From NCBI GenBank assembly GCA_003228095.2, contig QGNM01000015.1:1-35200 (forward strand): a stretch of 35,200 nt of DNA, given 5' to 3'. The translations under genes and the position numbers were made by a program. The first letter of the stretch is position 1. Every line of letters begins with the position of its first letter. This stretch comes from Chloroflexota bacterium. Lineage in GTDB: Bacteria; Chloroflexota; Dehalococcoidia; Lucifugimonadales; UBA2962. The notes under the pieces were generated by a model. The model did no database searches and was not told the DNA's origin. It was given only the letters and a program-made list of their open reading frames with translations. Shown here piece by piece: positions 17,360-24,328 of this stretch.

Positions 17360-17851
17360 TTACTCTAAAAGTCTATCGACCTCATCGAGCCATGCCAGAA
17401 TCATTGTGTCAGCTGATTCATCATTCATAATTTGTCCACTTTGCATCATTTTAATTAAACCATCTTTGACTATTCTACTGTCGATCTTCTGTGCATTTCC
17501 GATGGTTGACATCAATTCCATCTCGCTTGCCATATCCATGCGATAGGCTGAACTTACGTTAATCAACTTAATTATTAATCTAGCTTGTTCCACACGCCTA
17601 AGTAAATTTGGATAATCAGCATCAACGGTCTTGGTGTATTGTGCGAGTTTAACTTCATACTGCGCAACTTTGAACTCAGCATCAACCAGTTTGGTTTGTA
17701 ACTCTTTTAACTGGGTTTGGGTTTTGCTTAATTCATTTGATATTTCAACAAAGTCCTCTATGGAATTCTCATTTGTAGAACATGAAATCAATACAAAACC
17801 TAGGAGAGTACATAATAAAACGAGGATCGTAGACTTAAATAAATAGGTCAT
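17360..17851 (-). CDS. Small coiled-coil lipoprotein, function unknown
   Basis: This 163-residue protein has a lipoprotein signal peptide: hydrophobic residues 8-23, then the lipobox LISC with the lipidated cysteine at 24. The segment about 30-85 is rich in heptad-like Leu/Val/Ile with Gln, Lys and Glu (QTQLKELQTKLVDAEFKVAQYEVKL), a likely coiled coil. The remainder is helical (YPNLLRRVEQARLIIKLINV, then about 60 residues ending DEVDRLLE). I do not recognise a family. Lgt, needed for its lipidation, is encoded at 27537-28427. AAAGGAAA precedes the ATG. It lies just downstream of two tRNA genes on the same strand. Confidence 0.82.
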   Translation of the reverse strand: MTYLFKSTILVLLCTLLGFVLISCSTNENSIEDFVEISNELSKTQTQLKELQTKLVDAEFKVAQYEVKLAQYTKTVDADYPNLLRRVEQARLIIKLINVSSAYRMDMASEMELMSTIGNAQKIDSRIVKDGLIKMMQSGQIMNDESADTMILAWLDEVDRLLE

Positions 17852-18104: not shown

Positions 18105-19607
18105 CTAACCCTTAGACAGTGCTAATACTAAATATATTAACGTTCGAACAGGAATTCCAGTCGCACCTTTGGTTAACATGCCAGTAGTTTTAGACGAAGT
18201 AGATGTAGCTGCAATGTCTAGGTGGACCCATGCTACGTCTTTTGCAAATTCACCTATGAACATGGCCCCAGTTATTGATCCTGCCTGTCTTCCTCCTACA
18301 TTTTTTAAATCAGCGATTTCACTTTTATATAATTCTCTATACTCCTCAAAGGTAGGCAATTCCCAAATTTTTTCTCCAGCTTCATTTCCTGCTTCTATGA
18401 CTTGATTAACTAATTTGGGATCATTGCTGAATGCGCCAGTAGTAACCTTGCCTAAGGCTATTTCTATCGCTCCGGTCAAGGTTGCTACATCGACTATGCG
18501 TTTAAGCCCCAACTGCACTCCATATGAAACTGCATCAGACAAAACAAGCCTTCCTTCAGCATCAGTATTATCTACTTCAATTGTAGTACCGTTCATAGCC
18601 ACTACCACATCTCCAGGTTTTTGAGCATTTCCACCTGGCATATTTTCTGTCGCTGCAGCGATAACTGTCACATTAATTTTTGGTTTTAGCTCTGCGATGG
18701 CTTTCATTGTGCTTATTACTGAAGCCGCTCCAGCCATATCTCCCTTCATAGCAGCCATACCTCCTGAAGGCTTAATAGATATTCCTCCTGAGTCGAAAGT
18801 GATGCCTTTACCAATCAGCCCCAGGTTATTATTTGGGTTTTCAGGATCTCCTGAATATTTGATGATTATCATTTTTGGAGGAACAATACTTCCTTTGGCT
18901 ACTCCAAGTAACGCTCCCATTTTTAATTGTCTCATTCGGTTTTCATCGAAGACTTCTAGTTCCAGATCAGTTCCATCACAGATGTCCGTGGCAATGTCTA
19001 CCAAATCTGAAGGCGTCATGTAGTTTGCAGGTTGATTAACCAAATCGCGCGCTAAAGCCACAGAAGAGGCGATTGGTATTCCTTGGGAAAGACCATGTTG
19101 AATTGCATCAATTTTGGAATTGTCTGACTCTATGATAGTTACCTGTTTTATGTTTTGTTTTTGTTTTTTAGACTTATGTTCACCAAATTTATACGAACCT
19201 AAAATAGTCCCTTCAGCAATTGAACGAGCAGCAATAGCTGGTTCAATTACACCAATTTCATCTCCATGCAACACCGTTGCATATGTTTTGATTTGCTTGG
19301 AGTTTAGAAATCTAACAATTAACCCAGAGGTCGACCTAATCACATCTTGATCAAATTTCTCTTTACGGCCTAACCCGACAACTAAAACACGTTTAGGTTT
19401 AATCGAACCTTGAGTATGTATTAATGTTAATTCACCAGCTTTGCCTCTAATTTCACCAACTTCAATTAAGTTGGAGATGGTGTCGTTAAGGTATTCATTT
19501 ACTAAACCAACTACCCCATCCGGTTTTGAAATTCCTTCAAATAAATTAACTACAATTGCATCTGCATCTTGTTTGGTTATGTCACCGATTTCTACGTTTA
19601 ATTTCAT
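18105..19607 (-). CDS. pepA: Leucyl aminopeptidase (M17 family)
   Basis: The 500-residue cytosolic metallo-aminopeptidase of the M17 family releases N-terminal residues during peptide turnover; PepA also binds DNA in some bacteria. The metal and catalytic residues of E. coli PepA are present at nearly the same numbering: K267, D272 (KGITFDSGG), K279, D290 (MKGDMAG), D349 and E351 with R353 in the signature NTDAEGRL. The N-terminal alpha/beta domain (about 1-165) and the catalytic domain are both complete. The gene is on the minus strand just upstream of the two tRNAs and divergent from the aminotransferase at 19726. Confidence 0.96.
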   Translation of the reverse strand: MKLNVEIGDITKQDADAIVVNLFEGISKPDGVVGLVNEYLNDTISNLIEVGEIRGKAGELTLIHTQGSIKPKRVLVVGLGRKEKFDQDVIRSTSGLIVRFLNSKQIKTYATVLHGDEIGVIEPAIAARSIAEGTILGSYKFGEHKSKKQKQNIKQVTIIESDNSKIDAIQHGLSQGIPIASSVALARDLVNQPANYMTPSDLVDIATDICDGTDLELEVFDENRMRQLKMGALLGVAKGSIVPPKMIIIKYSGDPENPNNNLGLIGKGITFDSGGISIKPSGGMAAMKGDMAGAASVISTMKAIAELKPKINVTVIAAATENMPGGNAQKPGDVVVAMNGTTIEVDNTDAEGRLVLSDAVSYGVQLGLKRIVDVATLTGAIEIALGKVTTGAFSNDPKLVNQVIEAGNEAGEKIWELPTFEEYRELYKSEIADLKNVGGRQAGSITGAMFIGEFAKDVAWVHLDIAATSTSSKTTGMLTKGATGIPVRTLIYLVLALSKG

Positions 19608-19725: not shown

Positions 19726-21003
19726 TTGAATAAACATAATAATAAAGATTTAGATCTAGTAGCTAAAGCGCATAGGTTTTTACCAGGTGGCTCTCTTGGA
19801 AATTTAACTTCAGACGTTATTATAGACAAGGGGTTAGGTAGTAAAATAACTGATGTGCAAGGTAACGAATATATAGATTACCTATTGGGCTCTGGACCTA
19901 TGATAACGGGACACGCACATCCAGAGGTAATGGAAGCTGTAAAGAATCAATTAGAAAATGGGACTACATTCTTTGCAAATAATGAACCAGCAATTTTGCT
20001 TGCTGAAGAAATTTCAAACGCTATGGAGTGCGTAGATAAAGTAAGATTTTCGAGTACTGGAACAGAAGCAACAATGTACGCGATGAGAGCTGCTAGAGCA
20101 TTTACTAAGAAAGATAAGATATTAAAATTTGAAGGCGGATTTCATGGAATGAATGATTATGCACTTCAAAGCATGATGCCAGTTGACCCTCATCAATTCC
20201 CTATCCCAAAATCAGACTCTGGAGGGATACCGGCAGCAGTATCAGAAACGATGCTTATAGCGCCATTTAATGATATTGAGGTCACGCAATCCATAATTGA
20301 AGAGCATAAGAATGAATTAGGAGGTGTCATTGTTGAGCCTTTTCAAAGACTATTGCCTCCAAAACCAGGATTCCTTGAAATGTTAAGGCAAATTACATTA
20401 GAACACGAAATCCCTTTGATATTTGATGAAGTAGTTACGTCTTTTAGATTTGCTTTAGGTGGAGCACAAGAATTCTATGGAATAACCCCTGATATCTGCT
20501 CACTAGGCAAAGCTGTCGCAGGAGGATTTCCACTTACTGCTGTCGGTGGCCGTGAAGATATTATGTCTCATTTTGACGCTTCTGCAGTGGATGCTGAAGA
20601 ATGGTTGCCTCAAATTGGAACACTTAGTGGCAACCCAATTGCAGCAGTAGCTGGGCTTGCTACTGTTAAAATTCTAAAAAAACCAGGCACATATGAGCGG
20701 ATGCATGAAATTGGCAATATAATAAAGACAGGACTTGAGAACACTCTTAAGGACGCGTCAATAAAATCTAAAGTAGTTGGTGTTGGGGTATTGTTTGATG
20801 TTTTTTTTACTGATGAGGAGATTGTCGATTATCGTTCAACTTTGAAAGCAGATAAGTCTAAATTAATGAAATTCAATCGTTTGTTAAGAGAAAATGGTAT
20901 CTTTAAAGGAGACAGTAAATTTTACCTTTCAACGGAACACGATGAATCAGATGCTCAAGAAACAATTGAAGCTTTTAAGACAATTGTTGATAAACTAAGT
21001 TAA
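19726..21003 (+). CDS. HemL-like class III aminotransferase
   Basis: This 425-residue PLP enzyme resembles glutamate-1-semialdehyde aminomutase. Landmarks are ITDVQGNEYIDYLLGSGP, FSSTGTEATMYAMRAARAFT (phosphate loop), KFEGGFHGMNDY, IVEP, IFDEVVTSFR with D234 against the pyridine nitrogen, and the Schiff-base lysine K262 in SLGKAVAGGFP. The start is TTG at 19726; the ATG at 19715 is out of frame and ends at once. No other heme gene is nearby. The context (an MBL-fold protein and a class V aminotransferase directly downstream, same strand) suggests an amino-acid or amine catabolic role rather than heme synthesis. It is similar to the truncated gene at 1-629. Confidence 0.9.
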   Translation: MNKHNNKDLDLVAKAHRFLPGGSLGNLTSDVIIDKGLGSKITDVQGNEYIDYLLGSGPMITGHAHPEVMEAVKNQLENGTTFFANNEPAILLAEEISNAMECVDKVRFSSTGTEATMYAMRAARAFTKKDKILKFEGGFHGMNDYALQSMMPVDPHQFPIPKSDSGGIPAAVSETMLIAPFNDIEVTQSIIEEHKNELGGVIVEPFQRLLPPKPGFLEMLRQITLEHEIPLIFDEVVTSFRFALGGAQEFYGITPDICSLGKAVAGGFPLTAVGGREDIMSHFDASAVDAEEWLPQIGTLSGNPIAAVAGLATVKILKKPGTYERMHEIGNIIKTGLENTLKDASIKSKVVGVGVLFDVFFTDEEIVDYRSTLKADKSKLMKFNRLLRENGIFKGDSKFYLSTEHDESDAQETIEAFKTIVDKLS

Positions 21004-21025: not shown

Positions 21026-21862
21026 ATGAAGGTCGGTGACATATCAATAAATGTGGTTACAGATGGAACTTTACTTTTGGATGGAGGAGCCCTTTTTGGG
21101 CCTGTTCCAAAGATCCAATGGGAAAAGAATCTAAAACCAGACAGAAGTAATAGGGTTAGAATTTCTTTAAATTGTATATTGATTCAATTAGGGTCTCAAA
21201 ACATTTTAATAGATACCGGAATTGGAGCTAAACGTATGGAGAAACTCAAGGAGTCATACGCTGCTGCTGGTAATAAATTAATAAAAAATTTAAAGAGAGG
21301 GGGCTTAACCGCGAGAGACATAGATATAGTTGTCTTGACTGATTTGCGGTTTCATAGGGCTGGAGGGTGCACAAAAGTTGATAGGGTTGGCCAGACTCTT
21401 CCAGCTTTCCCAAAGGCAAAATATTTAGTTCAAAAAACAGCCTTAGAACAGGTAATTAATCCTAGCGAGCGTGGCGCCCCGCTATATCATAAAGATGACA
21501 TTCTTCCCTTAATGGAAAAGGATTTGGTCGAAGTTATTGATGGTGACTACAAAATTGCACCTGGTATAACAACTTTTATGACAGATGGCCCTAGTGTCGG
21601 TCACCAGGTAGTGTTAATTGAGTCTGGTAGCGAGCGGATTGCATATGCAGGTGACTTGATGCCAACTTCATATCATTTGGCTCCAGGATGTATAAGCTCT
21701 TTAGATTACTCTCCCAATAAAACTTTAATTGCAAAACGCGAGGTTTTATCAATGGCAACAGATAAAGGTTGGTTGTTGGTATTTGGGAATGCTCAGGAAA
21801 ACTATGCAGGATATGTTGAACAACGTGGCGGAAAGTATGGGTTACGAGCTATAGATATTTAA
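21026..21862 (+). CDS. Metallo-beta-lactamase-fold protein with most metal ligands lost
   Basis: This 278-residue protein follows the MBL fold of lactonase-like hydrolases: an N-terminal beta sheet, ILIDTGIG (60-67), VVLTDLRFHRAGG (102-114), VGHQ (H193) and YAGDLMP (D210). In active members the central motif is HxHxDH (as in THLHFDHAGG). Here those positions are D106, R108, H110 and R111, so none of the canonical identities is kept. The last ligand region reads VFGNAQ where FxHD is expected. Only H193 and D210 remain. The reading frame is intact and the spacing is conserved, so this looks like a pseudoenzyme or an enzyme with a remodelled site rather than a decaying gene. It lies 22 bases after the aminotransferase and 38 before the class V aminotransferase. 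Confidence 0.88.
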   Translation: MKVGDISINVVTDGTLLLDGGALFGPVPKIQWEKNLKPDRSNRVRISLNCILIQLGSQNILIDTGIGAKRMEKLKESYAAAGNKLIKNLKRGGLTARDIDIVVLTDLRFHRAGGCTKVDRVGQTLPAFPKAKYLVQKTALEQVINPSERGAPLYHKDDILPLMEKDLVEVIDGDYKIAPGITTFMTDGPSVGHQVVLIESGSERIAYAGDLMPTSYHLAPGCISSLDYSPNKTLIAKREVLSMATDKGWLLVFGNAQENYAGYVEQRGGKYGLRAIDI

Positions 21863-21900
21863 TTATTGGATTATTTTACATTTTTTGAGTGGAGTTCATG

Positions 21901-23028
21901 ATGGCAGGCTTATTAGCAAATATTGATCCTGATGGGTTATTAGAGTACTCGGTTGTTTATACAGACAGGTCTCTTAACCACATGTCGCAATCATTCCAAG
22001 GCATTATGAACGACGTGTCGAGATCACTTAAAAGTGTCTATAGCGCACAAGCAGCTATCGTTGTGCCTGGTGGCGGAACCTATGCAATGGAAGCTGTTGC
22101 TCGTCAATTTGCAACCAATCAAAATTGCTTAGTATTACGAAACGGTTGGTTTAGTTTTCGTTGGTCTCAAATCTTTGAAATGGGGAATATTTCATCTGAG
22201 GAGACAGTAATGAAAGCTTGCCGTGTCAGTAAAGGCGCTCAAGCACCATTTGCCCCAGCAGACATTAATGAAGTGGTAGACATGATTAAAACGCAAAAAC
22301 CTAATCTGGTTTTCGCTCCTCATGTTGAAACATCATCTGGCATCATACTGCCTGATGACTATATCCGTTCTGTTGCCGAAGCTGTTCACTCAGTTGGCGG
22401 TATGTTTGTATTGGATTGTATTGCTTCAGGAGCTATCTGGGTTGACATGGAAGATAGTGGTGTAGATATATTAATCAGTGCTCCTCAAAAGGGATGGAGT
22501 TCCTCCCCTGCATTTGGGTTAGTGATGCTTTCAGCTAAAGCGAACGAGGCGATTAATAAAACTCAAAGCACAAGTTTTTCTTGTGACTTGCTTAAATGGC
22601 TGCAAATTATGCAAGCTTATGAAAATGGAACACATGCCTATCATGCCACAATGCCCACAGATGCAATTAAACGTTTTCGAGATACAATTATTGAAACGGC
22701 AGAGTTCGGTTTTGACAATGCTCGCAAAAAACAACAAGAGTTAGGTGATAAAGTTAGATTGTTACTTGAGAGTCACAATATCAATAGTGTTTCTGAAAAA
22801 GGTTATCAAGCACCAGGTGTTGTTGTTAGTTACACCAATGATAAAGAAATTCATAATGGTTCAAAATTCTCAAACGTTGGTATGCAAATTGCTGCAGGTG
22901 TCCCGCTTAAATGTGATGAAGGGGATGATTATCGAGCCTTCCGCCTTGGATTATTTGGCTTGGACAAGCTAAAAGATGTTGATGCTGCGGTTAAAAGACT
23001 TGAAGATGCTCTCAAACAAGTTGTTTAA
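21901..23028 (+). CDS. Class V aminotransferase (alanine-glyoxylate aminotransferase-like)
   Basis: The 375-residue fold-type I PLP enzyme is related to alanine/serine-glyoxylate aminotransferases. Visible blocks are VVPGGGTYAMEAVARQF (cofactor phosphate region), LRNGWFSFRW, HVETSSGIILP, VLDCIASGAIWVDMEDSGVD (the aspartate facing PLP) and SAPQKGW with the Schiff-base lysine at K197. The reading frame extends to a GTG at 21889, but GGAG (21891-21894) is best spaced for the ATG at 21901; 21898 is an alternative. The sequence strongly recalls proteins from marine Proteobacteria, so exchange between plankton lineages is possible. The gene ends seven bases from the convergent mtaB. Confidence 0.88.
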   Translation: MAGLLANIDPDGLLEYSVVYTDRSLNHMSQSFQGIMNDVSRSLKSVYSAQAAIVVPGGGTYAMEAVARQFATNQNCLVLRNGWFSFRWSQIFEMGNISSEETVMKACRVSKGAQAPFAPADINEVVDMIKTQKPNLVFAPHVETSSGIILPDDYIRSVAEAVHSVGGMFVLDCIASGAIWVDMEDSGVDILISAPQKGWSSSPAFGLVMLSAKANEAINKTQSTSFSCDLLKWLQIMQAYENGTHAYHATMPTDAIKRFRDTIIETAEFGFDNARKKQQELGDKVRLLLESHNINSVSEKGYQAPGVVVSYTNDKEIHNGSKFSNVGMQIAAGVPLKCDEGDDYRAFRLGLFGLDKLKDVDAAVKRLEDALKQVV

Positions 23029-23035
23029 TCATCTG

Positions 23036-24328
23036 TTACTCTGCAAGCAAACAATTTAAATAACCGTTGGATTCTTCCTCAATCAGTACTCGGCTTATTG
23101 TGTTATACAGATCTCTTTCATCGCTTAGGCATACTCGAACATAGGTATCAGTAAGGCCTATCCATTTCCTATTCTTACGCCCTTCCCACAATACAGGTCT
23201 AATCTTGCCTATCAACTGTTTTTGATGAGCTCTACTTTTCTCATCGCCTAAACGAATTAACTCATTAACTCTAACTGATTTAACTGATGAAGCAATCTGG
23301 TCAGTTAAATGAGCAGCAGTAGTGCCAGGGCGAACTGAAAATGGGAAAACATGTAACTTCGAGAAACCAACCCTATTAACCACATCTACCGTATCTTCAT
23401 AATCCTGTTCACTTTCTTCAGGGAACCCGACAATGATGTCAGTAGTAATTGAAAACTCCGAGAATTTAGACATCACAATTTCAACAGATGATAGGTATTC
23501 ATCTCTCGTGTACCGCCTACGCATAAGTTTAAGAATTCTGTTACTTCCTGATTGCAAAGGTATATGCATGTGTGGACAGACTCTCGGGTTTTCCCATACT
23601 CTCAGTAGTTCAGAGTTAATTTCCTGGGGTTGAATAGAGGACACCCTTAGTCTTGCTAGAGTTGTGTTTTCTAATATGTGTTCTATAAGAAGATGTAATT
23701 TATTAGGTCCACCAGTTATATCAAACCCATAGGTGCCTAGTTGAGTACCTGTTAGTACAATTTCTTTATACCCAATTGTTTCCAATTTATTAATATTCGC
23801 AACTATCTCGTTTGCGGGAATACTACGCTCTCTTCCTCTCACCTTCGGAACTATGCAGTAAGCGCAGACCTGATCACACCCTTCTTGTATCTTTATGGAT
23901 GCCCTGGTCTTAATTGTATTTAGATTAATAGGAATCTGATCGGTGCCCAAAGTACAGCTAACAAAGCCATCTCCTTGGCTTGCTATTATCTCGCTCACCA
24001 GGGTAGCTTTATTGGCATTGTTGGCAATAATATCTATTTCCGGGATTGCCGATAAAGCTTTAGCATCTCTGTCAACATAGCATCCAGTTGCAACTATAGT
24101 AGCTTTAGGGTTCTGCCTGCGAGCAGACCTGAGGCTCCGCCTTGCTTTACGATCTGCTATATGGGTGACTGTACAGGTATTTACTATATAAATATCTGTT
24201 GGTTGACCAATTTCCACAAGCTTAAATCCAGCTTCTATAAACTGTAAAGCTAATTTTCCTGAATCAGCTTGATTCAATTTACACCCATGGGTTTCAATTG
24301 ATACTTTAGTTTCTAGTGTGGTATTCAT
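23036..24328 (-). CDS. mtaB: tRNA t6A37 methylthiotransferase
   Basis: This 430-residue radical-SAM methylthiotransferase converts N6-threonylcarbamoyladenosine at tRNA position 37 into the 2-methylthio form. The N-terminal UPF0004 domain has its three cluster cysteines: C16 (HGCKLNQADS), C52 (NTCTVT) and C83 (ATGCYV). The radical-SAM motif is C151-x3-C155-x2-C158 (CDQVCAYC), followed by VRGRERS. A C-terminal TRAM-like segment (RPVLWEGRKNRKWIGLTDTYVRV) completes it. HGCKLNQ rather than HGCQMN separates it from MiaB. It is divergent from fabF across 224 bases. Confidence 0.93.
   Translation of the reverse strand: MNTTLETKVSIETHGCKLNQADSGKLALQFIEAGFKLVEIGQPTDIYIVNTCTVTHIADRKARRSLRSARRQNPKATIVATGCYVDRDAKALSAIPEIDIIANNANKATLVSEIIASQGDGFVSCTLGTDQIPINLNTIKTRASIKIQEGCDQVCAYCIVPKVRGRERSIPANEIVANINKLETIGYKEIVLTGTQLGTYGFDITGGPNKLHLLIEHILENTTLARLRVSSIQPQEINSELLRVWENPRVCPHMHIPLQSGSNRILKLMRRRYTRDEYLSSVEIVMSKFSEFSITTDIIVGFPEESEQDYEDTVDVVNRVGFSKLHVFPFSVRPGTTAAHLTDQIASSVKSVRVNELIRLGDEKSRAHQKQLIGKIRPVLWEGRKNRKWIGLTDTYVRVCLSDERDLYNTISRVLIEEESNGYLNCLLAE

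Follow-up and report, generated by a model that had tools for sequence, protein, structure and literature searches.

Repeated loss of the metal site in an MBL-fold protein conserved across the SAR202 order

The window analysed here, a stretch of 35,200 nucleotides from a Chloroflexota contig, carries an open frame at 21026..21862 (+ strand) that encodes a 278-aa MBL-fold (YtnP-like) protein whose metal-site motif has been lost. A sequence-only reading of this DNA had delimited the gene more narrowly, and its interval covers only the C-terminal part of the full frame. Upstream, across a 22-nt gap, lies a co-directional gene for a HemL-like class-III aminotransferase (19726..21003, + strand; PF00202, 8.9e-63), which scores below the hemL equivalog cut-off (TIGR00713, 371.9 versus 527.3 bits) and whose translation contains an LGK motif, as is typical around the catalytic lysine. 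Downstream lies a class-V aminotransferase gene (21898..23028, + strand; PF00266), whose best PDB match is 3ke3 (8.3e-151), named as a putative serine-pyruvate aminotransferase; this gene lies outside the conserved locus. The syntenic markers of that locus are a divergent leucyl aminopeptidase gene, pepA (18105..19607, − strand; NF002083, 543 bits, and synteny), and a convergent tRNA methylthiotransferase gene, mtaB (23036..24328, − strand; TIGR01579, 413.8 bits). A 163-aa lipoprotein-like coiled protein with no Pfam match is encoded at 17360-17851 and is found beside pepA across the genus (52-54%).

Residues 102-116 of the MBL-fold protein read VVLTDLRFHRAGGCT. They include the degenerate HxHxDH motif TDLRFHRAGG (residues 105-114, that is, T105-D106-L107-R108-F109-H110-R111-A112-G113-G114; 21338..21367, + strand), which was identified from the sequence and its alignment with intact orthologs and stands where the intact form has THLHFDHAGG. 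All four ligands of this motif are changed, just as the sequence-only reading had stated; its further statements, that VGHQ and AGD are kept and that the terminal block is VFGN, were borne out at residues 191-194, 208-210 and 252-255, respectively, the last ending at residue 255, where the family shows FGH or FSH. Alignment with intact orthologs indicates that five of the seven expected ligands are replaced (D106, R108, H110, R111 and N255) and that only H193 and D210 are left. The retained H193 of VGHQ (21602..21604, + strand) is H in 131 of 136 aligned orthologs and N in 5, and the retained bridging ligand D210 of AGD (21653..21655, + strand) is D in 107 of them. The position of the lost ligand, N255 (21788..21790, + strand), is H in 117 orthologs and N in 11. 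An invariant N-terminal block, D13...D19GG..FG..PK..W......DR.NR (residues 13-43; 21062..21154, + strand), occurs in both intact and site-less orthologs. Contig 10 of the same genome encodes a further MBL-fold protein, whose site is ordinary (HLHPDH, GHTPGH, LGD and SGH).

Membership of the MBL-fold superfamily is indicated by the match to Pfam PF00753 (1.3e-12; 48.5 bits against a cut-off of 22.7), by full-length sequence similarity to PDB 3esh from S. aureus (1e-32) and by an AlphaFold2 model (pLDDT 96.1) that superposes on 3esh with a TM score of 0.89. The nearest named family is YtnP (NCBIfam NF047919), for which the window protein scores 157 bits, below the equivalog cut-off of 425 bits; intact SAR202 orthologs, at 193 and 187 bits, also fall below it. 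The YtnP lactonases, including 3ESH, share with the window protein the fold, the N-terminal DGG.xFG..PK..W block and PTxxH, but differ in possessing the HxHxDH motif, which is described as required for AHL hydrolysis (PMC9201388). A canonical site combines HxHxDH with a distal H, D and H, whereas the window protein has DxRxHR, keeps H193 and D210, and carries N255 in place of H. On these comparisons it is an MBL-fold homolog and not a canonical metallo-hydrolase. With its catalytic residues lost, its predicted fold kept and its sequence under purifying selection (see below), it is classed here as a putative pseudoenzyme.

Of 250 genomes in the order, 211 carry the gene, which has been inherited vertically in SAR202. 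The best-named relatives are SAR202 or Chloroflexi MAGs, among them SAR202 cluster bacterium OSU_TB35 (L032) at 92%. TDLRFHRAGG is common to three congeneric genomes (91-93% identity), which are all the congeners that hold the locus, and a single damaged allele is thereby ruled out. The MBL gene occupies a conserved place between divergent pepA and convergent mtaB, with fabF beyond; mtaB is convergent with it in 101 of 137 scored rows (64 of 80 degenerate and 37 of 57 intact). Because pepA, the class-III aminotransferase gene, the MBL gene and mtaB are all missing together from a fourth congener (G001), true gene loss was rejected there, and the absence most likely reflects an assembly gap. 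The main texts of a SAR202 pangenome paper and of a SAR202 cultivation paper mention neither a lactamase nor a lactonase, and a search for literature on SAR202 together with metallo-beta-lactamases returned a sole match, which concerned S. aureus.

To describe the state of the site, we defined two tripods, Zn1 (H106, H108 and H193) and Zn2 (D/E110, H111 and H255), in a set of 136 orthologs from about 40 family codes, mostly MAG sequences. Both tripods are present in 55 orthologs and exactly one in another 55 (Zn2 only in 40, Zn1 only in 15); 26 have neither. The four HxHxDH columns rank only 148th, 114th, 144th and 93rd of 278 in conservation. On a gene tree built without the ligand columns, in which many forks are weakly supported and 36 of 136 are open, the integrity of HxHx[D/E]H requires at least 20 parsimony changes or 27 irreversible losses, and on a second, larger tree 20 changes or 30 irreversible losses. 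The loss of both tripods requires at least seven changes, or nine irreversible losses, by parsimony. The case for recurrence goes beyond the gene tree, because members without either tripod occur in 8 family codes and nine families mix intact and degenerate members; a single family (f28) contains THLHFDH, TQLHFDH, TCLHFDH, THLHFEK and THLAFSH. As to whether D-x-R-x-H-R forms a clade, it is a genus-level variant, and site loss itself recurs across the whole order; by these reconstructions, the window's genus is one case of that recurrent loss.

Constraint in the wider family was gauged with 44 YtnP-like paralogs, mostly class-wide, which serve as a control for family constraint and not as a strict outgroup. 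All 44 have His at 106, 108, 111 and 193 and either D or E at 110, and against this background the ligand replacements in the window protein go far beyond what chance would give. The motif is likewise intact in the six orthologs found elsewhere in the class, outside the order. These observations argue that the erosion is special to this ortholog in the SAR202 order and that the dinuclear metal site was most likely still intact in its ancestor. Rooting with the paralogs was rejected, as the automatic root placed some of them among the orthologs, probably an effect of long branches (L062 and L069-L071); therefore, we relied on unordered parsimony and on the mixtures within families.

The remainder of the protein has not relaxed along with its ligands. 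Pairwise Nei-Gojobori estimates put dN/dS at about 0.02 within the window's genus, a rough bound only, as dS is saturated (at least 2.5); in other degenerate clades with measurable dS it is 0.02-0.07, similar to the 0.05-0.10 of intact pairs. The mean top frequency of the non-ligand columns is practically the same, 0.637 in the 26 site-less orthologs and 0.627 in the intact set, whereas that of the ligand columns falls from 0.984 in the intact set to 0.473 in the site-less one. All 26 site-less orthologs share D13, D19, G21, F24, G25, W32, D39, N42, R43, Q136, Q194, P213, T214, H217, K237 and F253, and the alignment-wide invariants are D13, G21, G25, W32, D39, A131, Q136, P213 and H217. Three of these residues, Q194, P213 and H217, differ in most paralogs. 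We infer that the conserved property is something other than metal-dependent catalysis.

We consider it rather probable that a metal-independent role, in binding or as a scaffold, has been selected across the order while catalysis was repeatedly lost. The gene encodes a YtnP/MPH-like MBL-fold protein, passed on vertically in SAR202, and comparison shows that the dinuclear metal site was intact in its ancestor. Selection would now act chiefly on some property of the folded protein that needs no metal. The most likely one is the binding of a small ligand or a partner, through an outer pocket or interface to which the invariant non-ligand residues would contribute. Because such a role needs no metal, the hydrolytic site would have become free to go, and the sequence pattern shows its loss many times over, often with one tripod going first and in some lineages with both gone. 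The window's genus is an end state, with both tripods gone, D106, R108, H110, R111 and N255 fixed, and metal binding and catalysis presumably lost. By analogy with fungal Dis3L2/Ssd1, the second, non-catalytic role may predate the losses. A more specific formulation, to which we give somewhat less than even credence, is that an order-wide metal-independent function, the sensing of a ligand or catalysis at a new metal-free active site with residues such as N42, R43, Q136, Q194 and H217, came before the losses. The classical metal centre would thereby have become dispensable, and some twenty or more lineages would have discarded it independently, wholly or in part. No conserved operon partner that might hint at a binding target was found among the scored loci, and the invariant residues may only hold the fold.

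Among the alternatives, a new catalytic site that is metal-independent or binds metal differently, built on N42, R43, Q136, Q194 and H217, is unlikely but has the most to recommend it. All 136 orthologs have H217, P213, Q136, W32 and D39, and at least about 98% of them, with every site-less one among these, have Q194, N42 and R43; the departure of Q194, P213 and H217 from most paralogs would also fit; however, such a site occurs in no solved relative, and the invariants could equally be structural or binding residues. We regard as slightly less probable again a stepwise reduction to mononuclear enzymes, in which the demand for a second metal was relaxed and the tripod-less members mark a rare last stage before loss. 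The 55 orthologs with exactly one tripod speak for it, as do the NxHxDH and QxHxDH forms of active MBLs (Asn116 in B2 and His/Gln116 in B3 enzymes; PMC2422870), and these one-tripod members (55 of the 81 degenerate orthologs) could indeed be mononuclear enzymes. For members without either tripod, including that of the window, this is unlikely: the site-less set is under equal purifying selection, spans 8 families with all non-ligand invariants kept, and includes large genomes (f31, f37 and f6; 2.1-3.9 Mb), so streamlining alone does not account for it.

The two remaining explanations carry much less weight. The sequence-only reading had proposed a partnership with the two flanking aminotransferases, and the position of the class-III gene, 22 nt upstream in the window and in the same place in several families, would suit a subunit or regulator of such an enzyme. 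Of 133 scored rows, however, 40 have the two genes side by side: 47 of 78 degenerate rows lack this neighbour (31 have it), and it is present in 9 of 55 intact ones. An independent-pairs test that takes relatedness into account found no association between class-III adjacency and metal-site loss, so the two do not track each other. Both aminotransferases do flank the gene in the window, but the class-V gene is at this site in only two of the four species that carry the MBL gene, the window's and G002; G004 has it at another position, and no copy was found in G003. Because of its very strong match to 3ke3, its patchiness and its changing position, the class-V gene was probably acquired horizontally and recently. 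The proposed partnership is thus mostly without support, and we hold it to be highly improbable. A decaying pseudogene or an assembly artefact has only the odd motif in its favour and is next to impossible given intact frames in independent MAGs, the low dN/dS and the confident structure model (pLDDT 96). Decay is refuted by dN/dS and the model. The core view of the sequence-only reading, that selection and not decay produced a pseudoenzyme or a changed active site here, is supported by these results, by the motif being fixed in four species and by the kept synteny.

Pseudoenzymes are typically known as fixed paralogs. In the MBL fold, CPSF100 and INTS9 are pseudoenzymes, paralogs of eukaryotic nucleases, that form heterodimers with an active sister protein (PMC4819959). 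They resemble the SAR202 protein in keeping the MBL architecture, losing the metal site and having a non-catalytic role, which for SAR202 is a proposed one; they differ in that in SAR202 one and the same gene has its site intact or disarmed depending on the species. A CPSF100-like heterodimer with an active close paralog was rejected as a general solution, as no second homolog of the query was found in three genomes (G019, G021 and G055); other PF00753 (MBL-fold) proteins are present in each of them. The nearest evolutionary precedent is fungal Dis3L2/Ssd1, in which the active site was lost independently at least four times and a non-catalytic role is proposed to have come first (PMC8097288). 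Both are single gene lineages with repeated loss of the catalytic site and conserved non-catalytic features, although the fungal proteins have another fold and function, and the SAR202 case involves a bacterial order and about 20 inferred motif changes. At the level of single ligands, B2 and some B3 metallo-beta-lactamases carry N or Q in place of the first His (PMC2422870), as do some partial SAR202 members (SNLHFDH and TQLHFDH); B2 enzymes, however, keep the Zn2 ligands and are active (PMC2422870), whereas the window's genus lacks ligands of both sites.

In one gene and one bacterial order, every stage can be seen: an intact dinuclear site, a single remaining tripod and no tripod at all. With intact and disarmed alleles side by side in the same families, this is a natural experiment in the loss of catalysis by an enzyme. 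Recurrent ligand loss under strong selection suggests an important job that no longer depends on metal, and the pattern points to a novel conserved function in the abundant SAR202 bacteria of the ocean. Annotation of this SAR202 gene by homology as a quorum-quenching lactonase would be wrong for many species.

Several minor observations concern the long-branched sequences and the aminotransferases. The most divergent ortholog (L062, 2782-3627; branch 1.9) has SNLQKDT and abuts the class-III aminotransferase gene with a gap of 0 nt between stop-to-stop frames. The genus members G001-G004 (1.5-1.9 Mb) each have six to ten matches to HemL-like class-III aminotransferases, a notable paralog expansion. 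A second, longer-branched YtnP-like protein occurs in families f19 and f8 (L069, 2869-3816; L070, 2716-3645; L071, 2645-3643); it keeps HxHxEH, but S or T replaces the bridging D and G replaces the last H, which makes it another case of a partially altered metal site.
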